31,159 nt of DNA from positions 1 to 31,159 of IMG/VR virus record IMGVR_UViG_3300002835_000727; one strand, written 5' to 3'. Source of the stretch: a virus. The position numbers and the translations under genes are program-made. Positions 13,301 through 31,159 of this stretch are shown piece by piece. The notes beneath the pieces are model-generated. The model saw nothing but the letters and a program-made list of their open reading frames with translations. It was not told the DNA's origin and made no database searches. Position 1 is the stretch's first letter. Every line of letters begins with the position of its first letter.

Positions 13301-16069
13301 AGATTGGTCAAATCCTAATCTATCACCACTTGTTACCAATATACCTTGGTCACCTGTACTATTTATATTAGATGAGTTGCGTAATATACCATTTACAAAA
13401 GTATAATCATCATGATACCATCTATCACTTCCTTCATCCCAATAAAATGCTTTTGTTGCTGCATTACCTCTCTTAACTTCTATACCAGCATTTTCAGTTG
13501 GTGCAGTTGATGCTCCAATATCTGCGTTTAATGTAATGATATTATCACCTACATTTAAAGTTGTTGTATTAATATATGTTGTAGTTCCACTAACAGTTAA
13601 GTTACCACTAATTGTAGCATCTCCAGTTACCGTCAATGTACTACCATCGAATTTTAAATTTGCTTCAACAGTTCCGTTTGGTGCAGTTCCGTTTAATGTA
13701 ATTACACCATTATCAGTTGTACCAGTTAATGCTAATAATCCAGAAGAACCTGATGTACCCTGCGTTCCAGATGTTCCCGATGAACCGCTTGACCCACTAG
13801 TACCACTACTTCCCGATGTACCACTACTTCCACTTGTGCCACTAGAACCACTACTACCACTTGTACCACTACTTCCGCTTGTGCCGCTAGAACCACTACT
13901 ACCTGATGTGCCTCCCGTGCCTCTAGTTCCCGATGTACCACTACTACCTGACGTACCAGCTGACCCAGCCGTTCCAGTTGTACCACTACTACCAGAAGTT
14001 CCCGATGACCCACTACTACCAGAAGTTCCCGATGAACCACTACTACCTGATGTGCCACTACTACCACGAGTTCCTGATGAACCAGAAGTTCCCGATGAAC
14101 CACTACTTCCGCTTGTGCCACTAGAACCACTACTTCCGCTTGTACCAGCTGACCCACCAGTTCCAGTTGTACCACTACTACCAGAAGTTCCTGATGAACC
14201 ACTACTACCACGAGTTCCTGATGAACCAGAAGTTCCCGATGAACCACTACTACCAGATGTACCAGCAGACCCAGATGAACCTTGTGCTCCAGAAGTTCCC
14301 GATGAACCACTTATTCCACTTGTGCCACTACTTCCAGAAGTACCTGTACTTCCACTTGTACCACTACTTCCGCTTGTGCCACGAGTTCCTGATGTACCAC
14401 TACTACCAGATGTACCAGCAGAACCTGATGAACCTTGTCCTCCAGAAGTTCCACTACTTCCAGAACTTCCTGATGAACCTGTTACTCCACTACTACCACT
14501 TGTTCCAGAACTTCCTGATGTGCCAGAACTTCCTGATGTACCAGAACTTCCTGATGAACCTTGTGCCCCACCACTTCCACTCGTTCCACTACTACCAGAA
14601 GTTCCTGATGAACCGCTACTACCACTTGTGCCACGAGTTCCTGATGTACCAGACGAACCGCTACTACCACTACTACCAGCTCCACCACCAGCACCAGTAA
14701 TACCCGATGAACCACTACTTCCGCTTGTGCCGCTAGAACCACTACTTCCACTACTTCCAGATGTACCCGCTGAAGATGATGCTCCAGCTATACCAGATGA
14801 ACCAGAAGTTCCACTACTGCCACTACTTCCACTTGTACCACTACTTCCGCTTGTACCACTACTTCCCGATGTACCATTTGTTGATGAAGCTCCAGTTAAT
14901 CCAGATGTTCCACTACTTCCGCTTGTGCCACTACTTCCGCTTGTACCAGATGAACCTGATGAACCACTGCTACCACTACTTCCACTAACACCGCTACTAC
15001 CACTTGAACCACTAGAACCACTACTACCGTTTGAACCATCTTTACCACTACTTCCACTACTTCCACTTGTGCCAGAAGTTCCCGAAGAACCACTACTACC
15101 GCTACTACCACTACTTCCGCTTGTGCCAGATGAACCTGATGTACCGCTACTTCCACTACTACCACTTGTGCCACTACTTCCTGATGTACCTCTTGTTCCA
15201 GATGAACCACTACTACCACTTGTGCCACTTGAACCAGAAGAGCCGGATGTACCACCACTTCCAGAAGTTCCCGATGAACCCGATGTGCCGCTTGTCCCAG
15301 AACTTCCCGATGAACCACTACTGCCACTACTTCCACTCGTGCCACTACTTCCGCTTGTGCCACTAGAACCACTACTACCTGATGTACCAGATGTACCAGA
15401 AGTTCCCGAAGTTGCTGCTGCAAATCTTCTACTAATTCTTCCTGTTGTTGTATTAAGAACTAATACTTCGTTTGTTGTATTATCAGTTGGTATTGTATCA
15501 CCAGTTACAAATATCGAACCACTAACTGATAAACTACCAGTTATTTCTTGCTTATCATTTGATGCATCACCGAATTTATTTGAACCTGATGAGAATATTA
15601 CTGATGATGATATAAATGTTGTATGTAATTCAGTTGATGTTATTTTACCAGCTACACTAATATCTCCTTTAAAAATACCACTACCAGTTACTATTAAATA
15701 ATCTTTAACAATAACACCTGTATTTATTTCTAAACCTTTATTTGGCGATATTGCTGCTACTGCTGAACCTGATTTGATTCTAAACAAATCTCCAATAGAT
15801 GCTGCATTAATATTAAATAACCCACTACCATCACCTTGAAATAAAGATGCTGTTATAGACCCACTTATTATTGTATTTCCTTTTATTTGTAGAGAAGAAC
15901 CGCTGGTAACTCCAATAACATTTGTTTGTACTGCGGATGCCGTAAAATTACCCACAACACTTACAGATTGGGATGAGGCATTTAAAATAGGAGAACCACT
16001 TACAAAAAGTGAAACACTATTAACGCTAGTTTGATTTATACCATTTGGGCTCTTACCTTCGAACTTCAT
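7319..16069 (-). CDS. Giant tail fibre with Gly-Ser/Thr-Ser triplet stalk and C-terminal S74 chaperone (2916 aa)
   Basis: This is a long virion fibre, probably trimeric. Residues 1-215 hold fibre repeat motifs (GDGSGLFNI, SGSITAS). Residues 222-777 are an uninterrupted Gly-x-Ser/Thr triplet tract with no regular proline. An exit module follows (TDNGVITLNGT, then NLKFDGSTLTVTG). From about 1165 to 2605, eleven FYD-x-D/N-x-T-x-YY repeats alternate with Gly/Tyr/Asn-rich beta segments. The end is an S74 intramolecular chaperone: SDARKKKD at 2801-2808, LGVIAQEVNEVVPEVV, then a coiled coil to the C-terminus. Proteins of this family trimerise through the domain and then cut it off near the conserved Ser, so the mature fibre would end near residue 2800. 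The N-terminus presumably binds the baseplate or another fibre. The 143-residue gene follows 3 bp later. Confidence 0.93.
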   Translation of the reverse strand: MKFEGKSPNGINQTSVNSVSLFVSGSPILNASSQSVSVVGNFTASAVQTNVIGVTSGSSLQIKGNTIISGSITASLFQGDGSGLFNINAASIGDLFRIKSGSAVAAISPNKGLEINTGVIVKDYLIVTGSGIFKGDISVAGKITSTELHTTFISSSVIFSSGSNKFGDASNDKQEITGSLSVSGSIFVTGDTIPTDNTTNEVLVLNTTTGRISRRFAAATSGTSGTSGTSGSSGSSGTSGSSGTSGSSGSSGSSGSSGTSGTSGSSGTSGSGGTSGSSGSSGTSGSSGSSGTRGTSGSSGTSGSSGSSGTSGSSGTSGSSGSSGSSGSSGTSGTSGSSGSSGKDGSNGSSGSSGSSGSSGVSGSSGSSGSSGSSGTSGSSGTSGSSGTSGLTGASSTNGTSGSSGTSGSSGTSGSSGSSGTSGSSGIAGASSSAGTSGSSGSSGSSGTSGSSGSSGITGAGGGAGSSGSSGSSGTSGTRGTSGSSGSSGTSGSSGTSGSGGAQGSSGSSGTSGSSGTSGSSGTSGSSGVTGSSGSSGSSGTSGGQGSSGSAGTSGSSGTSGTRGTSGSSGTSGSTGTSGSSGTSGISGSSGTSGAQGSSGSAGTSGSSGSSGTSGSSGTRGSSGSSGTSGSSGTTGTGGSAGTSGSSGSSGTSGSSGSSGTSGSSGTRGSSGTSGSSGSSGTSGSSGSSGTSGSSGTTGTAGSAGTSGSSGTSGTRGTGGTSGSSGSSGTSGSSGTSGSSGSSGTSGSSGTSGSSGTSGSSGSSGTSGTQGTSGSSGLLALTGTTDNGVITLNGTAPNGTVEANLKFDGSTLTVTGDATISGNLTVSGTTTYINTTTLNVGDNIITLNADIGASTAPTENAGIEVKRGNAATKAFYWDEGSDRWYHDDYTFVNGILRNSSNINSTGDQGILVTSGDRLGFDQSGTRSWNIKATGGNLALNSGDGGGLYTFGSGITINAGNLTLSSGNITISGTIDTGQGATEVYLMNQNLRTTDNVTYANITGNTVYLGGGTTYYVNGGTSNLNSLNVQGWSVRDTLSISVTGGNWYTVATNAGNRAMATFHIWDTESSRHGSMKFNAGISFGGTADITMLGKSWYSGGGIFNNIRIRRTGTYDTHFLQIYVASTGTLYIAMTDNYQSAGWVLTNGGTGTPGSTTAAEVVPNDYAGLATNNNIYSGNAVHAAGEMQSPIYYDRDDTTYRINGNGTSVLNYLQMNAAESMNLYGIRGRFTNEYIHLYNKVGIGNPSGWGVGETSTPIYGLSTYGAMNIGYGNTADSNLTGTFNINGSTINGANDATVYITATNNNDWLLRLNARNSSKTEYGMYVDIPNTATYGYALLSDGTNWTYRVNGNGYVFSRYYYDIDNTAYYVRPSVTSNLNALLTYSYQGNGNVGGTGNASWHPSGIYSAGYNWLYGGINAGGSSVTNMSDARASIFYDYDNTNFFLNPASTATSLRIAGGIKQNNLVGRPYAVWGATGATGAVVVKFPGNTGNYGMIHAVIDIYEYNGNNACTVIVGGHNWNGAWYNFGATLVGYTDKPIRVGVKDGKYCIVIGNGSSSWSYGQVVLRKIQNGAYYDGVMDVAEGYTAAIESDTYSNISGDLSGFRSTTISATSAMYSPIYYDSNDSGYYIDGNNQSRLLALKVGNLGTFNSGNTYALQLSHNNRYLLALNYNNSSYYPWLANDTWNGYEALIFHFNGIGDQFYFNRAGQMQANGDMRAPIFYDSNDTTYYTNPAGTSQFNDSIFGTTGLASNTGIQIRYQNYSSGYGRIRFYQSDSNHQTIHAFSANWQSGNLLGSSTGGINIEGQNGVTFGPWNAIHTGITSAGVYIRNNGNLYLDYNYGQSVVGVYSDVRYQGIFAMGDAYKLSIDGTGTGNLYGLAWSHPNRGGVASNLADHGLLLLQYGTFRTAIGGGRIVTTSDIRGTVFYDYDDTGYYTDPNTTGTAGRFRGQLLIGPNSSGRYTRIGGNGGAIDEATLSASNGNLHIDSANGYGLYLNHYSNGTIFMNNGGGHAFSYTSLRAPIFYDYNNTNYYLDPDGTSVLLATYIGGHYYYTYNSANIMIRTAGNSDGGILLQNAGGSFKFQLYADNSSNYGFLNGPWASWDLRKTLNGNLFMNNNSSYYLNTNSISQLAILRTDVSTSGYTAMFGPYTLSTNGQTFIYPDDARYGVVVNAPYYPHLYINSYANGGNPTHGGVFSMSGFLTGGGFRRFVMGIANTNPNEMSFGWYDNNYNPHYGVGINWSYPASIWYDTSNNFYVRNSVYAYTFYDRDNTGYYANPASTSNFNYVIAANGASYQHNAYNNNGSFMMNNASTYWGMMLNVSANDWRLGYGGGNSIVGWNLRWDNGSTVWANGSFRAPIFYDSDDTGYYANPNGESSFSTGIFYGNRLVIRGGSPTLYFRDTDENSAMLHNNSNRLYVLRGGTDSESWGTVNGYWPTYWQLNTNYCLMGGTTEAVYDFRAPIFYDSNNTAYYCDPNGTARLSYVAANGGIRIDGNADLYLDNNYGQSVVGVYTSVRYQGVFSMGNSYKPAIDGTSMNNLYGIAWSHPNVGGQGGYLNDHGMIVANYGTAFAAISSRGWFRTSVQSPIFYDDNNTGYYCNPNAYSQFSSGEANDYWRVSRLTFTGEGGNSGNGAHAYAIFQEGGGWGYPYPDLRIAFHTGIKLGANASYEGTRIYDDYPMGTIRWQFNGGSGYNYQYTWTQLTGHHGHYSGTNGAHWYPNDVTYGAWRMAGNRNGWYGHRIDSSYAPHIMFESGNGGIYYQDNGRWVFYHSLGNNCTGLGTSSTASGYGIYVNGGVYATGNVVAYSDARKKKDVVTVDKALDKVLQLRGVYYTKIYNENDTIPDGGADKRQLGVIAQEVNEVVPEVVSYVKDLDEYAVAYGNMSALLIEAIKEQNQIIKKQADEIEEMKEILNKLIFNNKG
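7322..7669 (-). other. S74 intramolecular chaperone/autoprotease domain (codons 2801-2916)
   Basis: Ser2801 begins the S-D-x-R-x-K motif at which S74 domains self-cleave. The motif (R)QLGVIAQEVNEVVPE and the terminal helix rich in Ile/Lys/Glu are the other family signatures. Length and position (last 116 residues) are typical. Confidence 0.88.
8265..8597 (-). repeat. Duplicated ~105-residue fibre module, copy B
   Basis: Same motif order as 10255-10578: NYGQSVVGVY, RYQGVFSMG, IDGT, NLYGIAWSHPN, NDHG, then an FYD repeat. This is an intragenic duplication followed by divergence. Confidence 0.8.
10255..10578 (-). repeat. Duplicated ~105-residue fibre module, copy A
   Basis: Contains NYGQSVVGVY, RYQG-F-MG, YK-x-x-IDGT, NLYG-x-AWSHPN and a DHG segment, ending in an FYD repeat. 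Copy B lies at 8265-8597 with the same order of motifs but diverged sequence between them. Confidence 0.8.
13739..15406 (-). repeat. Gly-x-Ser/Thr triplet tract of the 2916-aa fibre (residues 222-777)
   Basis: About 185 Gly-led triplets, mostly GTS and GSS, with occasional GTR, GAQ, GLT or GKD. The DNA is a degenerate 9-nt tandem array. Ser is encoded by AGT, TCA, TCT and TCG in mixture, which limits exact repeats. No proline-rich pattern is present, so a classical stable collagen helix is not assured. Confidence 0.9.
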
Positions 16070-16808: not shown

Positions 16809-17252
16809 TTAAGGTTTAACCGGCCAAGTTATGTTATATGGGTTTGATTGAGATGTAATATCTCTTAACGATTGTCTGTAAGTTTGCCACAATTCTTTTG
16901 TTTCGGTTGGGATATCCAATAATTGTGTCCAATCGCATTCTGTTAATAATTCGTTTCTTTGAATTCTAATTTCCTCCCACTTTGTTTGAATTCTATAAGA
17001 AATTTCTTCTTCCGATGCATTTGTTTGTATCCAATTTCTGCAATAATTTCCATCAATTAAAACAGGTGTTCCTTCGATAATATTTTTTGTATAATCATTT
17101 GGCATTGGAGTTGGGGTAACTACATACATATCCCACTCTATTAAAGATTCATCCGTTAATTGAGCAGGTAAGCTTGTGTTTGGATATGATTTTCTTAATT
17201 GAGGAATACTATAAGGATAATGAATTGTATCTTCTATAATTCTTAAATACAT
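16809..17252 (-). CDS. Tail fibre assembly chaperone-like protein (Phage_tail_APC type, 147 aa)
   Basis: The C-terminal half has the signature of the phage tail assembly chaperone family: KWEEIRIQRNELLTECDWTQ at residues 91-110, LLDIP, then YRQSLRDI at 125-132, and a terminal WPVKP. The N-terminal half (YPYSIPQLRKSYPNTSLP, then a LTDESLIEWDMYVV segment) also fits members encoded after a fibre gene. Such proteins help fold or attach fibres and are often not in the mature virion. The gene begins 1 bp after the stop of the PKD/LRR gene, so translation is probably coupled and that protein is its most likely client. The giant fibre upstream is a second possibility. Cys71 and Cys106 are present but form no known motif. 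Confidence 0.8.
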   Translation of the reverse strand: MYLRIIEDTIHYPYSIPQLRKSYPNTSLPAQLTDESLIEWDMYVVTPTPMPNDYTKNIIEGTPVLIDGNYCRNWIQTNASEEEISYRIQTKWEEIRIQRNELLTECDWTQLLDIPTETKELWQTYRQSLRDITSQSNPYNITWPVKP

Positions 17253-17253
17253 A

Positions 17254-18159
17254 TTATTTGAAAGTTGATGGTATTGATGCGTAATTTGCTAAACCAAAAC
17301 AGTTATTAAATGCATTAGTTCCAAGAGGTACTGGACTTCTACTCCATATTGTTGGAGCGGTTCCTGTTAAAGCATTTGATACTGAGGTCATATTATAAAT
17401 ATTACTAAAATTGCTAACCGATGTGTTGAATGTAAATTGTAATACATTAGTTAATTGTAAACAGTTTCTAAATGTTCCCACAAAACTAAGTACGTTTGGA
17501 TTATTATCAAACAATGTTGCTGGTACAGTTGTCAATGCAGGACATCCAAGAAATGCGTTTGCAAATGTTGTTGCATTTGGTACATTATCAAATAATCCAG
17601 TTGGTACTGTTGTTATTGTTGTAATTGATGAAAAACAATCCGTAAATGATGTTGCATTTGGAGAATAATCAAAAAGGTCAGATGGTATTGATGTTATCCT
17701 AGTACCTCTCATAAACGATGTGAATGAAATCACTTCTTCCAATCCAGTATACCCACCAACTGCACTTAAAGTTGCACTTGCAGGTATTTCTGTTAAATTA
17801 CTACAACCATAAAAATCAATTGTTCGTAATCCAACAATTCCCCATTGAACCAACTCTGTAATCAAACCTCTAATTGCTGAATTATTATTTACCTTAAAGC
17901 CAGGCATAAGTCCATTTATAGTAATTGTATAAGTTCCAGCAGTAGCATATGTATGAATTCTATCTGTTGATGTTGATGATGTTATTAATGGAGAATTTGC
18001 TCCACCATCACCCCAACTAATAGTTAAATTAGGAGTTAATGTACCATAATCAACCAATGGGGTTGTAAATACAGTGCTGCTCGTAGTTGTTGTTATTTTA
18101 AAAACAAATGGATACACTTCCGAACCATCTTGTGATACCAATCTTCTAAATATTCCCAT
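17254..18159 (-). CDS. PKD-domain and leucine-rich-repeat adhesin, candidate receptor-binding protein (301 aa)
   Basis: Residues about 20-83 look like a PKD beta-sandwich: LTISWGDG at 45-52 and HTYATAGTYTITING at 69-83, the classic WGDG and HTY-x-x-x-GTYT pair. From about 95 to 240 are leucine-rich, BspA-like repeats of about 26 residues with the core VP-x-x-LFD-N-x-PN-x-x-x-F-x-x-x-F-x-x-C-x-x-LT; three clear copies begin near 157, 183 and 211, with weaker ones on either side. No signal peptide is present, as expected for a virion protein. PKD and LRR folds both serve in carbohydrate or protein binding, so host-surface recognition is the likely role. The gene sits between the 3758-residue fibre (16-bp gap) and the assembly chaperone (1-bp gap). 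Confidence 0.8.
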   Translation of the reverse strand: MGIFRRLVSQDGSEVYPFVFKITTTTSSTVFTTPLVDYGTLTPNLTISWGDGGANSPLITSSTSTDRIHTYATAGTYTITINGLMPGFKVNNNSAIRGLITELVQWGIVGLRTIDFYGCSNLTEIPASATLSAVGGYTGLEEVISFTSFMRGTRITSIPSDLFDYSPNATSFTDCFSSITTITTVPTGLFDNVPNATTFANAFLGCPALTTVPATLFDNNPNVLSFVGTFRNCLQLTNVLQFTFNTSVSNFSNIYNMTSVSNALTGTAPTIWSRSPVPLGTNAFNNCFGLANYASIPSTFK

Positions 18160-18175
18160 AACTTTAAATATAATA

Positions 18176-21100
18176 TTAATTTAAATTCTTACCTCCTACA
18201 AATCCTAAATATGTAGTACCACCATTAAATGTGTAAAATACTAATACATCCACACCAGATGTTGTTAGAAGTGGTACACTCCCACCTGCCCAATCAATAC
18301 TAGCAGGAAAGTTTACTGTATATGCTCCAGCATTTACTGTCACTAACGTAAACCCAAATGCGTTTGATGCAGGTGCGTTAGTAAATGTTAATGTTGATGT
18401 ACCATTAAATTGTCTTCTAAAGTTGTTTGCTGTTGATAAATCTAAAGTTGCACTTCCACCAGTTCCTAAATCAGAATAAGTTTCTCTAAATGTTGTAGAT
18501 GCTACGTTACCTGCTACCGATAGAGTAGTACCATCAAAAGTTAAATTACTTTCAACAATACCAGTTGTTGTACTATTTTGCCAAGTCAATACACCATTTT
18601 CAGTTGCTCCAGACAATAACATAAATCCAGAACTTCCCGATGTACCATTTGTGCCACTAAAACCAGAAGTTCCTGATGTACCATTAGTACTTGTAACCCC
18701 AGAAGTTCCATTTACACCGCTTGTACCACTACTACCAAATAAAGTACCATCTAATCCAGATGTTCCAGATGTACCCAATCCAGAAGTTCCTGATGTACCA
18801 TTTGATGCTGATAATCCTGATGAACCTGATGTTCCACTGCTTCCAAAGAAAGTTCCATCCAATCCAGAACTTCCTGAAGTACCATTTGTGCCCAATCCAG
18901 AAGTTCCAGCTGACCCAGATATACCTGAAGTTCCTGATGTTCCAGTAGTTCCACTACTACCAAAGAATGTACCATCAAATCCAGAACTTCCTGATGTACC
19001 AGTTGTACCCGATGAACCGGCTGTGCCAGTTATACCTGATGTACCAGTTGTACCCGATGTTCCGCTACTACCAAAGAATGTTCCATCTAAACCGCTACTA
19101 CCAGAAGTACCTGTTGTACCAGATGTGCCGCTACTTCCATTACTTCCAGTTATACCCGATGTACCAGAACTTCCTGATGTTCCACTACTTCCAAAGAAAG
19201 TTCCATCTAAACCGCTACTACCAGAAGTACCAGTTGTACCTGATGTTCCAGCTGACCCAGATATTCCAGAAGTACCTGTTGTACCCGATGTACCACTACT
19301 TCCAAATAACGTACCATCTAATCCAGAACTTCCCGATGTACCAGTTGTACCTGATGTTCCAGCTGACCCAGATATTCCAGAAGTTCCTGATGTACCAGAA
19401 GTACCGCTACTACCAAATAAAGTACCATCTAATCCAGAACTTCCCGATGTACCAGTTGTTCCCGATGAACCACTTTCTCCAGAACTTCCCGAAGTACCAC
19501 TTGTACCAAATCCAGAAGTTCCCGATGAACCAAAATACGTTCCGTCTAAACCACTACTACCCGAAGTTCCGTTTTCTCCAGAAGTTCCTGATGTACCTGT
19601 TGTGCCAGAAGTTCCCGAAGTACCTGTTGTGCCAGAAGTTCCCGATGACCCAAAGAATGTACCATCTAAACCACTACTACCAGAAGTTCCGTTTACGCCA
19701 CTGCTACCCGAAGTACCATTTATTCCCGATGTTCCAGAACTTCCAGCAGAACCGTCAGTTCCACTAAGTCCATCCGTTCCACTAATTCCAGAACTTCCCG
19801 ATGTTCCATTACTACCAAAGAAAGTTCCATCTAAACCACTACTACCAGAAGTTCCCGATGTACCTTGCGTACCACTTGTACCATGACTACCATCATATCC
19901 AGAACTTCCTGATGTACCACTTATACCACTACTTCCAAAAAATGTTCCGTCTTGTCCAGAACTTCCCGATGTACCAACAGTTCCATCTTTACCAGAAGTT
20001 CCCGATGTACCTTCGGTGCCAGATGAACCAGAAGAGCCTGATGTACCACTACTTCCAGAACTTCCAAATGAAGTTCCGTCTTTACCAGAAGTTCCTGAAG
20101 TACCACTACTACCAGAAGTTCCCGATGTGCCTTCAGTGCCGCTTGTACCTTCGGTTCCTGATGTTCCAGATGAACCGAATGAAGTTCCATCTTTACCGCT
20201 ACTACCAGAAGTTCCCGAAGTACCTTCAGTACCGCTACTACCACTACTACCAGAAGTTCCTGATGTGCCAGAAGTTCCACTACTGCCACTAGTACCGCTA
20301 CTACCAAAATATGTTCCATCTATACCAGAAGTTCCTGATGTACCCTCCGTACCACTACTGCCACTTGTGCCAGAAGTTCCGCTACTACCACTAGTACCGC
20401 TACTACCAAAATATGTTCCATCCAATCCAGATGTTCCAGAAGTTCCCGATGTGCCACCACTACCAGAAGTTCCTGATGTACCTTCAGTACCACTACTTCC
20501 AGAAGTTCCTGATGTGCCACTACTTCCGTCTATACCAGAAGTTCCTGATGTACCTTCAGTACCACTACTGCCACTTGTGCCGCTTGTCCCATCCGTTCCA
20601 CTTAAACCAGAAGTTCCCGATGTGCCATCTATACCAGAAGTTCCCGATGTGCCATTTACTCCAGAAGTTCCTGATGTGCCAGCAGTTCCCTCAGTACCGC
20701 TACTACCGCTTGTACCTTCAGTACCACTACTTCCAGAAGTTCCCGATGTGCCATCTTTACCAGAAGTTCCTGATGTACCTTCAGTACCACTACTGCCGCT
20801 TGTGCCAGAAGTTCCACTACTACCGCTTGTGCCACTAGAACCACTACTTCCACTTGTGCCATCTATTCCAGAAGTTCCCGATGTACCTTCAGTACCGCTA
20901 CTACCACTAGTGCCTTCAGTACCACTACTACCCGATGTACCTTCAGTACCACTTGTGCCACTTGTACCAGAAGTTCCCGATGTGCCATCTATACCAGAAG
21001 TTCCTGATGTACCTTCGGTACCTGATGTGCCAGAAGTTCCTGATGAACCACCAGTACCGCTACTACCGCTACTTCCAGAAGTTCCCGATGTACCATCTTT

Positions 21101-24100
21101 ACCAGAAGTTCCTGATGTGCCAGAAGTTCCTGATGTTCCAGCCGAACCAGTTGTTCCTGACGTGCCAGACGAACCGCTAGTTCCCGATGTACCAGCAGAA
21201 CCACCACTACCTGCTGTACCAGATGAACCCGATGTACCAGCCGAACCACTTATACCAGAACTTCCTGATGTGCCGCTTGTACCAGATGAGCCGGATGTAC
21301 CCGATGTACCAGCAGAACCACCACTACCAGAAGTTGCAGATGTACCACTACTTCCTGATGTGCCCTCCGTACCACTACTACCACTACTTCCCGATGAACC
21401 ACTACTTCCACTTGTGCCACTAGAACCACCAGTACCAGAACTAGAACTAGTACCGCTACTACCAGAAGTTCCCGATGTTCCAGATGTTCCTGAAGACCCA
21501 GAAGTTCCTGATGTACCTTCAGTACCACTTGTGCCGCTTGTGCCAGAAGTTCCTGATGTACCCCCACTTCCGCTTGTACCAAATGAACCTGTACTTCCAG
21601 ATGTGCCACTTGAACCAGAAGTTCCTGATGTACCCCCACTTCCACTACTTCCGCTTGTGCCAGAAGTTCCTGATGTACCTTCAGTACCGCTACTACCAGA
21701 ACTTCCCGAAGAACCACTACTTCCAGATGTGCCACTACTTCCCGAAGAACCAGACGTTCCATCTATTCCAGATGAACCTGATGTACCTTCGGTGCCAGAA
21801 GTTCCTGATGTACCTTCGGTTCCTGAAGAACCACTACTTCCACTACTTCCGCTAGTACCTTCGGTGCCAGAAGTTCCTGATGTACCTGCAGTGCCAGAAG
21901 TTCCTGATGTACCTTCCGTGCCAGAAGTTCCTGATGTACCTTCAGTGCCAGAAGTTCCCGATGTTCCATTTGAACCGTCAACACCAGATGACCCAGATGT
22001 TCCTTCAGTACCACTACTTCCAGATGTGCCAGAACTTCCTGATGTACCATCCGTACCACTTTCACCAGAAGTTCCTGATGTACCACCCGTACCAGACGAA
22101 CCCACTGCAGCTGCTATATTTCTTCTTTCTAATTTTTTTGTTATATCATTCCAAACAACAACATTATCCGATGAACCAGTTGGTAATGAATTTAATAACA
22201 CACTACCACTAACACCCAAACTACCACTAATAGTTAAGTTAGCATTAATGTTACTATCTTTATTTACTTGTAAGAATGATGCCGTATCAACGTTTGCTGC
22301 ATTTAAAGCAAAAAGTGCCACACTAGCCGTAAATGCCAATGAGGCCGTTCCAACAGTCATTGATGCCGTTTGTGAATTCTGAACAAAGTTAGATGTATCT
22401 ACGTTTGATGCATTTTGTGCAAACAATGCGTAAGATGCTGTAATTGCTAATGAAGCAGTACCAACCAACATTGATGATGTTCTATCATTTCTAACATAAT
22501 CTGTCAAATTCAATCCACTTAAATTTGATATATATGATGCCGTTAATGCGTGAGATGAACTAACTGCGAAAAACACACTCATCGAAGATGTTTGTGAGTT
22601 TCTTACTAAGTTTTGAATATCATTTAATGCTGATAATGATGCCGAATCAAATCCAGTAACTGTATCAGCAACCGATGCTCTATCTGCATATGATGCAGAA
22701 AGAACACTACCAAATACTCTATTTCCCTGTACAGTTCCACTAATTATACTACCACCACTACCAATAACTGCATGTCCACTTGTCAATCCACTAAATACAA
22801 TTTGTATTGTATCATCATCTATTGATTTAATTGTACCAGCCATTATTTGGTCTTCCGAACCAGTAGCATATATTTGAACTAATGGATAACGAATACCCAA
22901 ATTATGTACAATTGTTAAATTACTTATATTATTAAATCCAACAGTTTCAGTTAATGAATATTCAGGTTGAGGAATAAAATATCCTCTACTTTCATCATAT
23001 CTTAAAATATCATATTCAGCCGATGCAGTTGGCCCTACTCCTTTAAAATTATATGTACCAACCAAACCACCACTAACTATTGGTGCAAATACTGCGTGAG
23101 AACCAGTTATATCTACCGCTGATATATTATGTGTTACAATTAAATTACCATCAATTGAAGATGATGTACTTACTCTAAATCCTCTATTTGGAGATATTTC
23201 TGCAAATTGAGAACCTGATTTTAATATTGATGTTTCAAATGCTAAATTAGCGATATTAATATTTCGTAATCCACTACCATCACCAAAATAACTTGAACCA
23301 GATGCTAATACAATATCAGAACCAGTAACAAACAATCCACCAGTAACACTTAAGTTACCAGACACAAATGTTCTAGTTCCAATCTCTAAACCTTTATTTG
23401 GCGATATTACCGCCTGAACTGAACCAGAAATAATTCTATCCAATTTAAGGTCTTGCAATGCGTTCGCAGGGATATTGAATAATCCACCACCATCACCTAT
23501 GTAAAGTGCTGCGGTTATTGGTACGTTTACATCTAATTTAGTTGGGTCTATAATTGCTCTACCAGAACCAGAATTAATTTTAAACAATTCAAGTCCTTCA
23601 ATTGATTCAGGTGGGATATTGAATAATCCACCACCATCACCATAGTAAATAGATGCGGTTATTGAACCACTAATCGCTACCGATGATGTAAATTGAGATT
23701 TATATGAACCAGATGCTGGTGCAGTTATTACAATAAATTGTTCACCACTTGCTACGGATGCCGTTGCCGAACCACTTGCTATTAAAGGTGATGCTGCAGC
23801 TTGTACATTTGTTAATTGAGAACCATCTCCAATAAAATTAAATGCCCTAACACTACCACTAACATCAACAGAACCAGTAAATCTAGAACCAATAGCTGAA
23901 CCAGTTGCTCCGGTTGTTACTATAAATGTATTTCCACTTTGAACCGATGCTGTTGCTGAACCACTTGCTATCAATGGTGCTGCTGCCGCTTGTACATTAG
24001 TTAATTGCGAACCATCTCCAATAAATGAAAATGCCTTTACACTACCACTCACATCAATTGAACCCGTAAATTGAGAACCTATTTGAGAACCGGTCTTTGC

Positions 24101-27100
24101 AGTTGTTACTATAAATTGCTCTCCACTTGTAACAGATGCAGTTGCAGAACCACTTGCTATTAAAGGTGATGCTGCTGCTTGTACATTTGTTATTTGTGAA
24201 CCATCTCCTATGAATGCAAATGCTCTTAATGAACCACTTACGTCAACACTTCCAGTAAATTGAGAACCACTTTCTTGTGATTGTACTCTAAATCCAAAAT
24301 TAGGAGAAACAGATGCAGTTACCGAACCTGATTTAATTTCAAATGAAGTTAGTGCATCTTCGGTTAAAGCAGAACGAGGAATATTTCTTAAATATGTACC
24401 TTCACCATAATATTTTGAAGATGATGCTAAGAACAATCCGCCACTAGCTTCGTTTATAAACAAACTACCACTTATATCAACCGAACCAGTAAATTTAGAA
24501 CCAATTTGAGTATTATATATAAAGGTTGGATTACCATCTACTACATTTATAACACCAGCCATTGCTGAATGTAATTGGCAATTATAATATAATGTATTTG
24601 GTGCACTTCCAGAAACTAAGAATGTTATCTGTCCAACATCTTCACCATTATTAGTAACCCAAGTATTATATCCATTTACAACACCAACTGCACTTGCCGA
24701 ATTAATCCAAAAAGGGTGGCCATTTGCATTTACATTAAAAACATATTCATAATTTCTATGTAATGTAATTGTAGGATTTGAACCACTTATTAATCCGTTA
24801 CTTATATTGTAATTACCACTTCCATTATTAGTTACAGTGAATACGTTGTCAAATGATAAAGAAGATGTAAACGGAGTTGTTACTTTAAATCCAAAATCGG
24901 GACTAACCGAAGCAGTTACACTACCACTTTTAATTTCCGTTGATATAAGTGCATCTTCCGTTAATGCTGACCTAGGTATTTTTCGTAAATAAGTACCTTC
25001 TGCATATATGAATGAAGATGAATCAATTAATATACTTCCACTAAATGATGAACCACTTACAAATGAATCAACAACTAATCCTTTATTTGGGGAAACTGAT
25101 GCAGTTACACTACCACTTGCAATTCTAAATACTTCACGAGATAATGCTGATAATGGTATATCAAATAACCCAGCACCACTACCAGTAAACATAGATGCGG
25201 TTACATTTCCTTCTACTTTAGTTTCACCAATAAATTTAATTTCGGCCGGTATTACTATACTGTCTATTATATTAATAGCTCCCACCATCGATGAGTGTAG
25301 CTGACAATTATAATAAAGTGTATTAGGCGAACCAGATGGTGGGGTAAATACAATAATACCATTATCAGTTCCGTTATTTGTAATACTACTACTATATTCC
25401 CATATAGTTCCAGTAGAATTAACGTATTTAATCCAAAATGGATGACCCGATGCGTTTACATTAATTGTATATTCCAATCCTCTAACTAATGTTAAATTTG
25501 GATTAGAACCACTAATAATACCATTTTCTATTATATATGCACTAGAACCATCATTTGTTACATTAACAATTCTATCAATTAAATAATCAGGAGTAGGTCT
25601 TCCAGATGAAGATACAATAAAACTACCATCAAATCTAGAATGAGTATTTACTTCAAATCCTTCCGTTGGTGAAATTGATGCCGTTGCACTTCCACTAAAT
25701 ATTTTTGTAGAATCAATTGCTAAATTAGCTAATGTAATATTATTAAGGAATCTACCATCTCCTACAAAGAATGAACCACTTGCTACATTTACATTTCCTT
25801 TAATATCAACACTTCCAGTAAATTCAGAACCACTTAGTAATGATTCTACTCTAAATCCATAAACAGGACTAACAGAAGCAGTTACACTACCACTTGCAAT
25901 TCTATATGGAGCGAATGATAGAGCTGATTCAGGAATATTAAATAATCCTTCACCACTACCACTAAAATACCCACTTCCAGAAGGTATTCTAACATTACCA
26001 TAAAATGTACTCCCACTAACTTGCGATTGTACTATAAATCCAGAATCAGCCAATGCTGATGCAGTTACACTACCACTTGCAATTCTAAATAATTCTTGCG
26101 AAAGTGCAGAGAATGGAATATCAGTTAATCCAGCACCACTACCACTAAATACCGATGCCGATACACCAGACTGAAATCTAGTATAACCACTAACCGATAA
26201 ACTTCCACTAAATGTAGAACCACTAGCAACAGATGTTACAACAAATCCAAAATTAGGGGTTGCTGATGCTGTTACCGAACCACTAAATATTTTTGATGTA
26301 TCTAAATCAGAAAGTGCTGATGCTGGTATATCAAATAAGAATCTACCACTACCAGAATATGATGAACCAGAACTGATAGATACACTACCACTAATTTTTA
26401 AACTTCCAGTAAATTCAGAACCACTAGCTGCCGATTGAATTATAAATCCTCTATTGGGTATTGCAGATGCGGTTACCGAACCAGATGCTATAAATGTTGT
26501 TAATAATGCATCAGGTGTTAATGCCGTTCTTGGGATATTGAATAATCTAGCACCACTACCAGAGTAAGATGAACCAGATGAAATTTCTATACCCCTAGCA
26601 CCACTTACAAATAAAGAACCAGTAAATTGAGAACCAATATCTGCAGAAACTACTCTAAATCCTAATTCAGGAGTTACAGATGCAGTTATCGAACCCGTTA
26701 CAATTTTATTACTTTCTTGAGAAGGTACGTTTATTAATTGAGAACCATCTCCTGCGAAAAATGTAGCCTTAACAGAACCAGTTACAAATAAAGAACCAGT
26801 TACGTTTATAGAACCAGTGAATGTACTACCATATTCCAAAGATTCAACTCTAAATCCATAATCAGGACTAACAGATGCAGTTACACTACCACTAACAATT
26901 CTAAATACTTCTTCGGATAATGCTGAACGAGGAATATCAAATAAACCTTTACCAGAACCACTAAACATTGATGCTGTAACATTACCACTAACACCTAAAC
27001 TTCCAGTTATATTTGTTTTACCTATAAATGTTATTTCAGCTGGTAATGTATATGTATCAACAATATTAATCATTCCCGCCATATCCGAGTGGAATTGGCA

Positions 27101-29452
27101 ATTATAATAAAGTGTATTTGGTGCGTTAGATGGTACTGTAAACGTTATAACTCCAACCGCTGTTCCGTTATTGGTTACACCATCGTTATAAGCATTAGCA
27201 GTTCCAGTTGAATTAATAGTTTTTATATAAAATGGATGCCCAGATGCATTTAAATTAAATGTATAAGTTACACCTCTAACTAAAGTTAATGTTGAATTTG
27301 GTCCTACAATAGCATTACTAAATGCATAAGATAGTGATGATGCGTTTGTAACATCAAATACAGTATTTAATGATGCAGTTGGTATTGTAAAATTAGATGA
27401 TGATACTATTAAACTTCCACTAAGTTTACTTGGTACATTTACATTAAATCCTTTAACAGGATCAATAGATGCGGTTGCTGAACCAGAGAATATTAAATTA
27501 ACATCTAAGTTTGAAATTGCAGAACGAGGGATATCAAATAATCCAGCGCCACTTCCACTAAATACACCACTACCACTTGGAATGAATACACTTCCGCTAA
27601 CATTTATACTTCCAGTAAATTGAGAACCAGTTCCTAAAGATTCAACTCTAAATCCATAAACAGAACTTACAGATGCAGTTATTAAACCATCTCCTATGAA
27701 TGTAGGTCTGGTTACTCTTTCAGCTAATGCTGATAGTGGAATATTAAATAACCCCTCACCACTACCACTAAAGAATCCACTTCCAGATGGAATTTGTATA
27801 TTACCACTTACAATTAAACTACCACTAAACGTAGAACCACTTGCTACTGATTTTATCTGAAATCCAAAATTTGGTGAAACTGATGCCGTTACACTACCAC
27901 TTGCTATAAATGTAGAAAGTAATGCATCGGGTGTTAAAGCTGAACGAGGAATATCAAATAAATTTTTACCACTACCACTAAACGCTGAACCACTACTTAT
28001 CGATACGCTACCACTAATTTTTAAACTTCCAGTAAATTGTGAGCCGCTTTCAAATGATTCAACTACAAACCCATTGACAGGGTTAGCAGATGCCGTTACC
28101 GAACCACTTCCTATTCTTGATACATTATCAGGATTTACATTTATTAATTGAGAACCATCTCCTGCGAAAAATTGTGCAAATACACTACCACTAACAGAAA
28201 CAGAACCAGTAAACTGAGAACCTATAACAGATCCAGTTGCTAAAGTTTCTACTCTAAATCCATAATCAGGATTTACGGATGCGGTTACACTACCACTTGC
28301 TATTAAATTTGCATCTTCGGATAATGCTGACCGAGGTATATCAAACAATCCCTTACCGCTACCAGTAAACATTGATGCCGATACATTACCTTCAAATTGT
28401 CCAGATGTATTTACTTGTAAGCCTCTATCAGGAGAAATTGATGCAGTTGCAGAACCACTAGCGATTCTAGGTGCATCTCCTGATAATGCTGATTGTGGGA
28501 TATCGAATAACCCTCTACCAGAACCAGAATACATTGATGCAGTTATTGTTGTATTAACTACCAAACCAGTATTCGGTGCTATTGATGCAGTTACACTACC
28601 ACTTGCTATTCTAGTTGATACTAATGAATCAATATTAAGTGCTGATAATGGTATATTAAATAATCCCTCACCACTACCACTAAAAAACCCACTACCAGAT
28701 GGAATTACTACATTTCCACTTACAAATAAACTTCCAGTAAAATTAGAACCGCTTTCAATTGAAATTACTTTAAATCCTTCTTGTGGAGAAACCGATGCGG
28801 TTACACTACCACTTGCTAATCTAGTTGCTTTTGGTAAATTAAATAAATTAGAACCATCTCCAAAAAACGAACCAGTAAACGAACCAGTGAAAGATGAACC
28901 GGTAATATTATTACCAATTAATTCACTTTGTATTCTAACAGAACCAGTAAATTGTTGTATATCGGATGTTTCATCGCCAAATATATTAGAACCAGATGAA
29001 TATATTACAGAAGATGAAATATAAGATACTATTAAACTTTCTGCATAAATCGTATCATCAACATAAAGGTCACCTTTAATTATAGTGTTTGTATTAACAA
29101 ACAAATTACCTTCCTTAAAAGATGCAGTTGCCGAACCACTTGCTATAAATGTTACATTTGGTAAATTAAATAAATCTCTACCATCACCAAAATATGAACC
29201 AGTAAATGAACCTGTGAATGAACCAGTAAATGCACCAGATGCTCTATCTAAATCTAAACTTCTTACAAATCCTCTATTACCTTGGTCATCCGAAACTACA
29301 ATAGCAGGATTTGTTAATAACGAAGCAGAAAAATTAGGAACACCTAAATTCGGCTCTGCTTGGGATATATCCAAGAATTGATACCTATCAGATGTTACAT
29401 TTTTAGGGTTTACTACCCTTACCCTACCCGTTAATAGATTACTAATTGCCAT
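18176..29452 (-). CDS. Giant fibre-like virion protein with three cupredoxin-like domains and a Gly-triplet stalk (3758 aa)
   Basis: Residues 1-2150 consist of about 25 units of roughly 45-65 residues, each with SGS-V/A-TAS, a GSxFTGS segment, a SGSG-x-GLF-x-IP segment and SAL. Three cupredoxin-like domains interrupt them at about 696-800, 1294-1397 and 1536-1638. Near 2168-2236 is a small beta domain with IVHNLGIRYPLVQIY, common in phage appendages. An entry module (NVVVWNDITKKLERRNIAAA) leads into a Gly-triplet tract at 2451-3609. The C-terminal 150 residues hold an exit module and a beta-rich fibre-tip domain (NGTSTLTFTNAP, then WAGGSVPLL, DVLVFYTFNGGTTYLGF). No S74 domain is present. The start at 29452 has a TGGAAAG ribosome site. 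It is probably a long side fibre; its very large mass makes it a major surface feature of the virion. Confidence 0.9.
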   Translation of the reverse strand: MAISNLLTGRVRVVNPKNVTSDRYQFLDISQAEPNLGVPNFSASLLTNPAIVVSDDQGNRGFVRSLDLDRASGAFTGSFTGSFTGSYFGDGRDLFNLPNVTFIASGSATASFKEGNLFVNTNTIIKGDLYVDDTIYAESLIVSYISSSVIYSSGSNIFGDETSDIQQFTGSVRIQSELIGNNITGSSFTGSFTGSFFGDGSNLFNLPKATRLASGSVTASVSPQEGFKVISIESGSNFTGSLFVSGNVVIPSGSGFFSGSGEGLFNIPLSALNIDSLVSTRIASGSVTASIAPNTGLVVNTTITASMYSGSGRGLFDIPQSALSGDAPRIASGSATASISPDRGLQVNTSGQFEGNVSASMFTGSGKGLFDIPRSALSEDANLIASGSVTASVNPDYGFRVETLATGSVIGSQFTGSVSVSGSVFAQFFAGDGSQLINVNPDNVSRIGSGSVTASANPVNGFVVESFESGSQFTGSLKISGSVSISSGSAFSGSGKNLFDIPRSALTPDALLSTFIASGSVTASVSPNFGFQIKSVASGSTFSGSLIVSGNIQIPSGSGFFSGSGEGLFNIPLSALAERVTRPTFIGDGLITASVSSVYGFRVESLGTGSQFTGSINVSGSVFIPSGSGVFSGSGAGLFDIPRSAISNLDVNLIFSGSATASIDPVKGFNVNVPSKLSGSLIVSSSNFTIPTASLNTVFDVTNASSLSYAFSNAIVGPNSTLTLVRGVTYTFNLNASGHPFYIKTINSTGTANAYNDGVTNNGTAVGVITFTVPSNAPNTLYYNCQFHSDMAGMINIVDTYTLPAEITFIGKTNITGSLGVSGNVTASMFSGSGKGLFDIPRSALSEEVFRIVSGSVTASVSPDYGFRVESLEYGSTFTGSINVTGSLFVTGSVKATFFAGDGSQLINVPSQESNKIVTGSITASVTPELGFRVVSADIGSQFTGSLFVSGARGIEISSGSSYSGSGARLFNIPRTALTPDALLTTFIASGSVTASAIPNRGFIIQSAASGSEFTGSLKISGSVSISSGSSYSGSGRFLFDIPASALSDLDTSKIFSGSVTASATPNFGFVVTSVASGSTFSGSLSVSGYTRFQSGVSASVFSGSGAGLTDIPFSALSQELFRIASGSVTASALADSGFIVQSQVSGSTFYGNVRIPSGSGYFSGSGEGLFNIPESALSFAPYRIASGSVTASVSPVYGFRVESLLSGSEFTGSVDIKGNVNVASGSFFVGDGRFLNNITLANLAIDSTKIFSGSATASISPTEGFEVNTHSRFDGSFIVSSSGRPTPDYLIDRIVNVTNDGSSAYIIENGIISGSNPNLTLVRGLEYTINVNASGHPFWIKYVNSTGTIWEYSSSITNNGTDNGIIVFTPPSGSPNTLYYNCQLHSSMVGAINIIDSIVIPAEIKFIGETKVEGNVTASMFTGSGAGLFDIPLSALSREVFRIASGSVTASVSPNKGLVVDSFVSGSSFSGSILIDSSSFIYAEGTYLRKIPRSALTEDALISTEIKSGSVTASVSPDFGFKVTTPFTSSLSFDNVFTVTNNGSGNYNISNGLISGSNPTITLHRNYEYVFNVNANGHPFWINSASAVGVVNGYNTWVTNNGEDVGQITFLVSGSAPNTLYYNCQLHSAMAGVINVVDGNPTFIYNTQIGSKFTGSVDISGSLFINEASGGLFLASSSKYYGEGTYLRNIPRSALTEDALTSFEIKSGSVTASVSPNFGFRVQSQESGSQFTGSVDVSGSLRAFAFIGDGSQITNVQAAASPLIASGSATASVTSGEQFIVTTAKTGSQIGSQFTGSIDVSGSVKAFSFIGDGSQLTNVQAAAAPLIASGSATASVQSGNTFIVTTGATGSAIGSRFTGSVDVSGSVRAFNFIGDGSQLTNVQAAASPLIASGSATASVASGEQFIVITAPASGSYKSQFTSSVAISGSITASIYYGDGGGLFNIPPESIEGLELFKINSGSGRAIIDPTKLDVNVPITAALYIGDGGGLFNIPANALQDLKLDRIISGSVQAVISPNKGLEIGTRTFVSGNLSVTGGLFVTGSDIVLASGSSYFGDGSGLRNINIANLAFETSILKSGSQFAEISPNRGFRVSTSSSIDGNLIVTHNISAVDITGSHAVFAPIVSGGLVGTYNFKGVGPTASAEYDILRYDESRGYFIPQPEYSLTETVGFNNISNLTIVHNLGIRYPLVQIYATGSEDQIMAGTIKSIDDDTIQIVFSGLTSGHAVIGSGGSIISGTVQGNRVFGSVLSASYADRASVADTVTGFDSASLSALNDIQNLVRNSQTSSMSVFFAVSSSHALTASYISNLSGLNLTDYVRNDRTSSMLVGTASLAITASYALFAQNASNVDTSNFVQNSQTASMTVGTASLAFTASVALFALNAANVDTASFLQVNKDSNINANLTISGSLGVSGSVLLNSLPTGSSDNVVVWNDITKKLERRNIAAAVGSSGTGGTSGTSGESGTDGTSGSSGTSGSSGTEGTSGSSGVDGSNGTSGTSGTEGTSGTSGTEGTSGTSGTAGTSGTSGTEGTSGSSGSSGSSGTEGTSGTSGTEGTSGSSGIDGTSGSSGSSGTSGSSGSSGSSGSSGTEGTSGTSGTSGSSGSGGTSGTSGSSGTSGSTGSFGTSGSGGTSGTSGTSGTSGTEGTSGTSGSSGTSGTSGTSGSSGTSSSSGTGGSSGTSGSSGSSGSSGSSGTEGTSGSSGTSATSGSGGSAGTSGTSGSSGTSGTSGSSGISGSAGTSGSSGTAGSGGSAGTSGTSGSSGTSGTTGSAGTSGTSGTSGTSGKDGTSGTSGSSGSSGTGGSSGTSGTSGTEGTSGTSGIDGTSGTSGTSGTSGTEGTSGSSGTEGTSGSSGTEGTSGTSGIDGTSGSSGSSGTSGSSGTSGTSGSSGTEGTSGTSGKDGTSGTSGSSGTEGTSGSSGTEGTAGTSGTSGVNGTSGTSGIDGTSGTSGLSGTDGTSGTSGSSGTEGTSGTSGIDGSSGTSGTSGSSGTEGTSGTSGSGGTSGTSGTSGLDGTYFGSSGTSGSSGTSGTSGSSGTEGTSGTSGIDGTYFGSSGTSGSSGTSGTSGTSGSSGSSGTEGTSGTSGSSGKDGTSFGSSGTSGTEGTSGTEGTSGTSGSSGTSGTSGKDGTSFGSSGSSGTSGSSGSSGTEGTSGTSGKDGTVGTSGSSGQDGTFFGSSGISGTSGSSGYDGSHGTSGTQGTSGTSGSSGLDGTFFGSNGTSGSSGISGTDGLSGTDGSAGSSGTSGINGTSGSSGVNGTSGSSGLDGTFFGSSGTSGTTGTSGTSGTTGTSGTSGENGTSGSSGLDGTYFGSSGTSGFGTSGTSGSSGESGSSGTTGTSGSSGLDGTLFGSSGTSGTSGTSGISGSAGTSGTTGTSGSSGLDGTLFGSSGTSGTTGTSGISGSAGTSGTTGTSGSSGLDGTFFGSSGTSGSSGTSGITGSNGSSGTSGTTGTSGSSGLDGTFFGSSGTSGTTGTSGITGTAGSSGTTGTSGSSGFDGTFFGSSGTTGTSGTSGISGSAGTSGLGTNGTSGSSGLDGTFFGSSGTSGSSGLSASNGTSGTSGLGTSGTSGLDGTLFGSSGTSGVNGTSGVTSTNGTSGTSGFSGTNGTSGSSGFMLLSGATENGVLTWQNSTTTGIVESNLTFDGTTLSVAGNVASTTFRETYSDLGTGGSATLDLSTANNFRRQFNGTSTLTFTNAPASNAFGFTLVTVNAGAYTVNFPASIDWAGGSVPLLTTSGVDVLVFYTFNGGTTYLGFVGGKNLN
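18626..22102 (-). repeat. Gly-x-Ser/Thr triplet tract of the 3758-aa protein (residues 2451-3609)
   Basis: About 385 Gly-led triplets, mainly GTS, GSS and GTE. Its downstream half (plus about 18730-20420) is broken fifteen times by DGT-x-FGSSG, where three residues instead of two separate the glycines. The upstream half lacks these breaks. The DNA is a degenerate 9-nt array. Confidence 0.9.
23700..24265 (-). repeat. Three tandem near-identical ~63-residue units
   Basis: Three consecutive units share FIGDGSQ-I/L-TNVQAAA, then PLIASGSATASV and a FTGS-V/I-DVSGS segment, far more alike than the other units. This points to a recent tandem expansion within the N-terminal repeat region. Confidence 0.8.
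24540..24846 (-). other. Cupredoxin-like domain 3 (residues about 1536-1638)
   Basis: NANGHPFWIN, VTNNGE, PNTLYYNCQLHSAMAGVINV. Candidate copper ligands are His1579, Cys1625, His1628 and Met1631, again 46 residues from His to Cys. Confidence 0.7.
25264..25572 (-). other. Cupredoxin-like domain 2 (residues about 1294-1397)
   Basis: Same order of strands as domain 1, with NASGHPFWIK, SITNNGT, PNTLYYNCQLHSSMVGAINI. Candidate copper ligands are His1337, Cys1383, His1386 and Met1389, with identical 46-residue His-to-Cys spacing. Confidence 0.7.
27055..27366 (-). other. Cupredoxin-like domain 1 (residues about 696-800)
   Basis: TLVRGVTYTFNLNASGHPF, then a VTNNGT segment, VITFTVPSNAPNTLYYNCQF and HSDMAGMINIVD. 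Candidate type-1 copper ligands are His739, Cys785, His788 and Met791 (C-x2-H-x2-M, the spacing of amicyanin). Confidence 0.7.
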
Positions 29453-30463: not shown

Positions 30464-31159
30464 TTATATTTGTAGTGCTAATGAGAACGGAGTTACCAAT
30501 GAGAATAGAGATTTACTAAATGTTCTACCCACAAGAGTACCAGTTGCCTGATTAATACTTAAACCTGTACCAATTCTAAAGTCACCATCCTGATTACCGG
30601 ATGTGAAGAAGATTCTACCTCCACCCAATTCAGTAATTTCGTATATTGGATTTGCAACACCACTACCACCCTGATTTGGAGGAAGTGCTTTAAATGTCAC
30701 ACCACTACCATTATAAGAGTAGTCAATACCAGTTGCCACAATTAATGAACCAAATGATTCTAATGGTGCACCTGCTGCTATAAACTCTGCTCTAGTTCTT
30801 AGATAACGATTTGTTTCCAATGTTTCTAATAATTGGTCTCTAGTCACAGCTATTGCACTTCCGTACTGACCATCATAGTATGAAGATGCTGCTCTGATTC
30901 CTCTCTCATTTCCACCATACAATAAATCAGTCACACATGCATCTACAATAAATCCAGTATCACGTGAACAACTTGCTTCATTATATACTAAATATGGAAA
31001 TGCTCCATTTGTGTATCCAATTGCTCTTTGTTTTAATTCATCTTTACCAGCTTTTAATCTTTCAGCCGCTTGTCTTCTCTTAGTTGCAGGTGCTAAATAA
31101 GTTAATAAAGTATTTGCTACAATTTTTTCAGATATTCCTCTTGCGAAGTTAATACCATC
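30464..31159 (-). CDS. Virion structural protein, C-terminal 231 residues (cut by the window edge)
   Basis: The frame is open to the right edge, so the start lies outside; the GTG at 30934 is internal to clear coding sequence. Visible motifs are GINFARGISEKIVANTLL, then CSRDTGFIVDACVTDLLYGG, SSYYDGQYGS, and a C-terminal FFTSGNQDGDFRIGTGLSIN with QATGT. I associate the CxRD-x-x-x-x-x-DA-x-x-x-DLLYGGN pattern and the GDFRIG-x-x-x-x-INQATG ending with large structural proteins of T4-like phages of aquatic bacteria, where they are virion or baseplate/fibre components. The exact role is not known to me. Two cysteines are present in the visible part. The 305-residue gene follows 26 bp later. Confidence 0.8.
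   Translation of the reverse strand, partial: DGINFARGISEKIVANTLLTYLAPATKRRQAAERLKAGKDELKQRAIGYTNGAFPYLVYNEASCSRDTGFIVDACVTDLLYGGNERGIRAASSYYDGQYGSAIAVTRDQLLETLETNRYLRTRAEFIAAGAPLESFGSLIVATGIDYSYNGSGVTFKALPPNQGGSGVANPIYEITELGGGRIFFTSGNQDGDFRIGTGLSINQATGTLVGRTFSKSLFSLVTPFSLALQI

Follow-up and report, generated by a model that had tools for sequence, protein, structure and literature searches.

What does a phage fibre do with domains that resemble blue copper proteins? The question is raised by the virus record IMGVR_UViG_3300002835_000727, whose 31,159 bases are the window analysed here. A first-pass annotation had placed three cupredoxin-like domains with full copper ligand sets inside a phage fibre. 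The ORF concerned lies on the minus strand (18176..29452) and encodes 3758 amino acids, running from a repeat shaft with three cupredoxin inserts through a collagen-like G-[TS]-S tract in its later part (Pfam Collagen, E 3e-116) to a C-terminal part. It sits in the tail module of a myovirus-like phage. Upstream, a cut-off frame (30464..31159, minus strand) matches tail-fibre and baseplate-wedge families (phrog_17885, E 4.7e-17; phrog_13163, E 5e-7), and downstream follows a tail-fibre-assembly-like protein (16809..17252, minus strand; phrog_4912, E 2.8e-18). Other neighbours match tail-tube and baseplate-hub families, and one is a tail sheath, whose nearest relatives are those of Microcystis phage Mel-JY01 (47.6%) and of Flavobacterium phages (41%). 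The repeat shaft and the tail-gene neighbours thus both bear out the location in a fibre.

The same tail region holds a second fibre-like ORF (7319-16069, minus strand, 2916 aa). Its C-terminal domain is a Peptidase_S74 (endosialidase chaperone), and [YF]YDxx[DN][TS]xYY motifs can be seen by eye to recur in it. The collagen-like G-[TS]-S tracts of the two giant tail ORFs are very long (~18,500-22,100 and 13,700-15,400, minus strand; the latter matches Pfam Collagen at E 2e-64), lack proline by eye and overlap long antisense open frames, for example 13536..15701 on the plus strand. A 301-aa protein (17254-18159, minus strand) contains five cysteines in repeats around GC/DCF/GCP/NCL; it gave no Pfam match, and its sole match is phrog_9915, function not assigned (E 2.2e-23).

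The architecture of the shaft shows how the three domains are accommodated. The N-terminal fibre is a chain of repeats, each starting with SGS[VA]TAS or a near variant, and within residues 1-2100 we count 22 such starts and hence 21 intervals. Seventeen intervals measure 48-70 residues and the first measures 109; the remaining three, of 198, 193 and 199 residues, are exactly those that contain the cupredoxin-like domains. Because the three long intervals coincide with the three domains, each domain is an insert of ~130 residues in one shaft repeat. The modules concerned, all on the minus strand, are residues 655-852 for domain 1 (26897..27490), residues 1252-1444 for domain 2 (25121..25699) and residues 1508-1706 for domain 3 (24335..24931).

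A family profile delimits the domains themselves, again on the minus strand, at 27059..27349 (domain 1, residues 702-798; phrog_677, E 5.5e-25), 25265..25561 (domain 2, residues 1298-1396; E 5.6e-20) and 24539..24835 (domain 3, residues 1540-1638; E 1.1e-20); the annotated positions differ from these by no more than a few residues. Compared with domain 1, domain 2 shows 57% and domain 3 54% identity. The ORF contains only 3 cysteines, next to 14 histidines and 14 methionines, and these cysteines (785, 1383 and 1625) fall one per domain, each in the motif YYNCQ[FL]HSxM. The histidine of the GHPF[YW]I motif (739, 1337 and 1579) precedes the cysteine of its domain by exactly 46 residues, and [VI]TNNG occurs in all three domains. 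The putative ligands of domain 1 are accordingly His739 (27236..27238) and the loop Cys785-x2-His788-x2-Met791 (27080..27100), assigned by motif and by conservation among relatives. By motif, they are His1337 (25442..25444) with Cys1383-x2-His1386-x2-Met1389 (25286..25306) in domain 2 and His1579 (24716..24718) with Cys1625-x2-His1628-x2-Met1631 (24560..24580) in domain 3, all on the minus strand. Every element of the motif description in the annotation, including the spacing and the absence of any further cysteine, is reproduced at the level of residue positions. This putative ligand pattern is not a product of chance, since it recurs in most members of a large family of homologues. The family-profile search found no fourth domain in the 31,159-nt record. 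In a 274-kb virus record with a related fibre (L026), a separate frame of 4187 residues holds a fourth cupredoxin-like domain (G001:C1:219675-219992).

Homology to proteins of known structure becomes visible with profiles. A phmmer search of the PDB with the single sequence of domain 1 gave no match, so that a profile was needed. We used two alignments, A4 with 51 sequences from the 31,159-nt record and IMG/VR, and A3 with six domains taken from records of cyanophages and marine viruses. At E<=0.01, all 19 PDB matches listed for the A4 profile and all 38 listed for the A3 profile are either cupredoxins or copper proteins with cupredoxin domains. Amicyanin is the best match of A3 (3.8e-5; 2.1e-4 with A4), rusticyanin is found at 1.1e-4 (A3), and plastocyanin is also among the homologues. 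Non-copper matches start only above E 0.01, with penicillin acylase at 0.039 (A4) and ribosomal L31 at 0.025 (A3). In the rusticyanin alignment (A3), the His, Cys, His and Met of the family all stand opposite the GHSF histidine, C, H and M of rusticyanin, which we take to be its copper ligands. In the amicyanin alignments of both profiles Cys, the second His and Met match, and the first His lies two positions off amicyanin's own. The cupredoxin-like identity of the domains and their full ligand set, both claimed from motifs in the annotation, are supported by profile homology, the ligand set most directly by rusticyanin.

Standard family models register this relationship only in part. Pfam gave nothing over cut-off for domains 1-3 (best match, the At5g54830-like domain, E 0.0017), and PF00127 and PF13473 stay below the gathering cut-off and are absent even at E<=10. 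At E<=0.1, 17 and 11 of the 51 relatives match these two models, respectively, and 19 of the 51 match the amicyanin model TIGR02657 of NCBIfam (best 2.4e-4), a collection in which domain 1 itself matches no family. Against PHROG 677, queries consisting of the single domains match only the C-terminal ~110 positions of the 412-position profile (302-411, 309-412 and 307-410 for domains 1, 2 and 3). We rejected an identity with plastocyanin (petE), as we are dealing with an inserted domain with a C-x2-H-x2-M loop and not with a stand-alone secreted protein; the plastocyanin loop is C-x2-H-x4-M, and C-x2-H-x2-M is the loop of native amicyanin. We regard it as close to certain that the three domains belong to the cupredoxin superfamily and carry a complete ligand set.

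Structure prediction supports a cupredoxin-type eight-strand fold. The AlphaFold2 model of domain 1, calculated with alignment A4 as input, has a pLDDT of 90.5, a pTM of 0.82 and eight strands. Foldseek returned 43 PDB chains at E<=0.001, namely rusticyanin, plastocyanin, pseudoazurin, Cu nitrite reductase and multicopper oxidases, with CueO and NirK among the named matches; the TM-scores are modest (0.42-0.59 by query length, among the 50 matches listed). VIA-align, which re-aligns Foldseek's own hits, placed the N-terminal region of Hyphomicrobium nitrite reductase on top (2dv6 residues 24-147; Z 10.8, 3.5 A over 104 residues) and gave Z 10.2 for rusticyanin (2.6 A over 97 residues). The eight strands expected by the first-pass annotation are thus recovered in the predicted model, with copper-protein folds as its nearest PDB neighbours. 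In a second model, of one whole shaft module, only the inserted domain is confident and separate, and the flanking shaft blocks reach a pLDDT of ~45-75, which is what a single chain of a probably trimeric shaft should give. The domain 1 model also matches small "beta-sandwich proteins" in BFVD (A0A481Z6J5, A0A481Z7Q7 and A0A481YVH3) from Pithovirus and Marseillevirus metagenome genomes; one has 124 aa, and the match is one of fold only.

Does the ligand set mean that a metal is bound? The domains might instead serve as fold without metal: an immunoglobulin-like beta-sandwich that decorates the fibre, with cupredoxin residues that are inherited relics or purely structural. Immunoglobulin-like domains of phage surface proteins, which are thought to aid weak surface binding, are likewise beta-sandwich modules in virion proteins, but our domains differ from them by cupredoxin homology and by a conserved four-residue putative metal site. 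The two views make different demands on conservation, since a relic is expected to decay randomly and a metal site is not. We scanned for relatives with two peptide patterns that include none of the four residues, PNTLYYN and [ET]Y[TV][FI]N[VL]NA. The scan gave 194 relatives in 252 matched stretches, of which the best 80, representing 76 loci, were used. Counting distinct segments of >=75 aa from these and from the 31,159-nt record, H-C-H-M is kept in 67 of 71 domains, a figure that the choice of the best-scoring 80 of 194 relatives may shift toward intact copies. The four exceptions read Q-S-G-M, H-D-L-L, H-S-N-M and H-S-D-M. In all four both Cys and the second His are replaced, while the first His and the Met each stay in three. 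Each site-less domain is the first of its fibre and is followed by one or more intact domains. All 78 frames have at least one intact site; this count takes in near-copies as well as frames truncated by the end of a locus, and seven of the frames show one domain only. Three of the site-less domains (L005, L050 and L054) group together in a poorly resolved tree, so that the four exceptions may go back to as few as two events, two or three in all. The annotation's expectation that homologues conserve Cys, His and Met consequently stands for the large majority of relatives, with this minority as exceptions.

Other samples need to be read with more care. Among 18 phage records chosen by eye for diversity, 23 of 27 distinct segments are H-C-H-M; the domain of phage S-B43 reads F-A-V-M and is thus kept without ligands, and in S-CAM1 the alignment stops before the Cys loop. 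Our larger scans used patterns containing Cys and His, which biases conservation, and the argument for selection is built on the ligand-free set only. This larger, partly ligand-selected set has drifted in part into a related ligand-free domain; of its 367 segments, 295 are H-C-H-M. None of the 367 combines Cys with a substituted second His or the second His with a missing Cys, one segment ending with its contig after Cys. All four residues are invariant down to 34% identity in A4, whose 51 rows are also partly ligand-selected. The joint loss of Cys and the second His is a weaker argument than a loss of all four residues would be, because the two lie three residues apart in one short loop and a single loop change could remove both.

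Taken together, the conservation pattern looks like that of a selected metal site. From a fold relic one would expect neither all four residues kept together in 67 of 71 domains nor an intact copy left in every frame, and the invariance in A4 points the same way. For the metal-free fold speak the four domains that persist without Cys and second His, often with the first His or Met still in place, the ligand-free domain of S-B43, and a large related set of ligand-free domains in the protein that cyanophages encode after gp9. We judge it to be unlikely. The putative metal is not needed in every copy, as the four site-less domains and S-B43 persist, and the frequent survival of the first His and Met where the other two ligands are gone slightly lowers our confidence in the overall reading. 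Because at least one intact site remains per fibre and loss affects only the first copy, the pattern fits a function for which part of the sites would suffice. An enzyme with a dedicated partner fits less well here than surface contact or metal-dependent stiffness.

That a metal is bound in the virion is, judging from the sequences, quite probable. Its identity is the next question. Zinc or another soft metal could be loaded in the cytoplasm during assembly and act as a clamp for stability, leaving copper no role. In favour of this, fibre synthesis takes place in the cytoplasm, which contains very little free copper, and a Bacillus cupredoxin-like protein among the structure matches has been solved, according to the titles of the entries, with zinc and with copper (4hcg, 4hcf). 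However, all four residues, Met included, align with the ligands of a blue copper protein, and Met is rarely a zinc ligand. We consider the clamp improbable and lean somewhat toward copper as the predicted metal.

The domain is by no means confined to this fibre. With domain 1 as tblastn query, 349 of 50,697 phage records match, 340 of them named Synechococcus, Prochlorococcus or Cyanophage; domain 2 finds 355 phage records. The proteins that carry it are gp9 connectors, fibres and hypothetical proteins, and structure matches in BFVD show the same distribution. Among the 18 phage records, the domain occurs in gp9 of P-RSM4 and P-SSM4, in proteins annotated as tail fibres in P-SSM2 and Bellamy, in a protein annotated as subtilisin-like in S-H9-1 and in hypothetical proteins of the podoviruses P-GSP1 and P-SCSP2. 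The gp9 proteins correspond to PHROG 677, the cyanophage "baseplate wedge tail fiber protein connector", whose C-terminal domain belongs to the same family with the same ligands in P-RSM4 and P-SSM4; cupredoxin is not named in the PHROG description. In gp9 a single domain forms the end of a connector of ~410 residues, whereas here three interrupt a fibre of 3758 residues. In the cyanophages L083, L090 and L093, the protein encoded after gp9 has one diverged copy of the form HP..C..HRYM, and in at least L083 and L090 the same frame holds a second related domain without ligands. The fibre-like gene with the domain in P-SSM2 (L080) lies three genes before piuC.

Bacteria use the same domain in proteins of secreted type. 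In bacterial and archaeal genome contigs, patterns containing Cys and His gave 62 loci in 114 matched stretches. In Flavobacteriia it forms the C-terminal domain of proteins that resemble lipoproteins by eye; a Pfam scan of two of these showed CHRD or Lipoprotein_15 repeats. Proteins of marine alphaproteobacteria that carry the domain have, by eye, an RTX-like start, and the short stand-alone proteins at L261, L265, L284, L313, L318 and L319 have N-termini that by eye look signal-like. The strict motif fits 63 of the 73 bacterial domains, and by eye six of the other ten keep H-C-H-M in variant surroundings. The rest are three fragments and L297, where Asn stands at the first His while Cys, the second His and Met are retained. 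This last protein, from a Lentisphaerae MAG, joins the domain to an FGE-sulfatase domain. A family sample centred on L268 (Flavobacterium glaciei) showed matches in 16 of 149 genomes at E<=0.001, 11 of them, the centre genome included, at E<1e-10. Ten neighbouring frames at L261, L265 and L319 contained no copper-linked genes beside the stand-alone copies. L261 (a Bdellovibrionales MAG) and L319 (a Methylotenera MAG) both lie a few genes from an NAD kinase and an SMC/RecN-like gene.

In a tree of 134 domains with few columns, in which 80 of 131 inner branches are open, phage and bacterial domains are interleaved; the label "bacteria" takes seven changes, and the least number forced by starred branches is three. 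One locus in the tree, an archaeal MAG, stands beside a viral contig. Many "bacterial" loci are MAG or single-cell contigs, some of which may be wrongly binned viral DNA. The interleaving suggests that the domain may have passed between phages and bacteria more than once. By its sequences, the family is common to secreted-type bacterial proteins and phage tail proteins.

Two further ideas concern the role of the fibre domains. In a copper Trojan horse, or capture, copper on the fibre would be recognised by a copper-uptake or copper-binding surface protein of the host. The fibre may hold several copper sites, and secreted-type Bacteroidota proteins carry the domain as well. T4 gp37 is presumably an HxH iron-binding tail fibre. 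A precedent hypothesis has been put forward for iron in HxH tail fibres, including those of Alteromonas phage R22Y (PMC11705849). Metal sites are proposed on a phage fibre in both cases, but the fibre ORF here is devoid of HxH (none of its 14 histidines are spaced i, i+2), and the putative His2CysMet site lies within one chain. For a copper Trojan horse no receptor is known, and the sheath relatives point to Microcystis and to Flavobacterium hosts alike; we find it rather doubtful.

The other idea is electron transfer with redox proteins of the host surface, or mimicry of plastocyanin. Type-1 copper sites are usually redox-active. Amicyanin, rusticyanin and plastocyanin share with our domains the fold, profile homology and the ligand order H...C-H-M, amicyanin also the length of the C-x2-H-x2-M loop, and the GHSFDI of rusticyanin resembles GHPF[YW]I in the alignment. 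Those proteins, however, are free and periplasmic, whereas here three copies are embedded in a fibre shaft, have no known redox partner and are only predicted to hold copper. The loop spacing, moreover, is unlike that of plastocyanin. The Photo_RC family (psbA/psbD) is found in none of seven records, the 31,159-nt record and six relatives, which as fragments may lack such genes, so that the host may yet be a phototroph. Cyanophages do carry petE plastocyanin genes (PMC2984593), and these too are phage-encoded cupredoxins, but petE is a separate metabolic gene and not a structural one. We rate electron transfer as very improbable.

The reading we prefer, with a probability of roughly 0.5, is that an un-named cupredoxin family with an amicyanin-type C-x2-H-x2-M loop serves as a fibre module that probably binds copper, most likely for adsorption or fibre stability. 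Set into one shaft repeat each, the domains should project sideways from a presumably trimeric fibre, which would then present nine sites. A metal, most likely copper, would enter the ligand sites after lysis or outside the cell. It would fix the loops at one barrel end and, as a side effect, make the fibre more stable; redox catalysis would not be required. The main job would probably be adsorption, the domain acting as a surface-contact module, a role that we read from its location only. For adsorption or stability as the role of the domain we see the odds as evenly balanced.

How new is this? Among the titles and abstract openings that searches of the open-access literature listed, none describes a cupredoxin in a phage fibre or connector. 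The first-pass annotation called such domains, to its knowledge, undescribed, which agrees with this search; as a picture of one odd fibre it does not hold, for many cyanophage tail proteins, gp9 among them, carry members of the family, and it occurs in secreted-type bacterial proteins too. We are thus dealing with a known superfamily within a known phage protein family, whose identity has apparently gone unrecognised and whose place is unusual.

Metal in phage fibres has so far been discussed for iron; a conserved blue-copper-type site in the tail proteins of ~340 cyanophage records and of the relatives of the 31,159-nt record would bring a new metal and a new fold there. At the far end of what may be imagined, and as a long shot, the virions of many aquatic phages could be copper metalloparticles: working type-1 sites in fibres and gp9 connectors, of the same family as the secreted cupredoxins of bacteria, would make contact with copper proteins of the host or react to copper on the cell surface, and would form a small pool of organic copper ligands in the water. 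With the finding, a domain that is un-named in PHROG 677 and in many "hypothetical" proteins of the tail region receives a name and a chemistry that can be tested, and this phage tail domain is tied to an un-named family of secreted-type bacterial cupredoxins.
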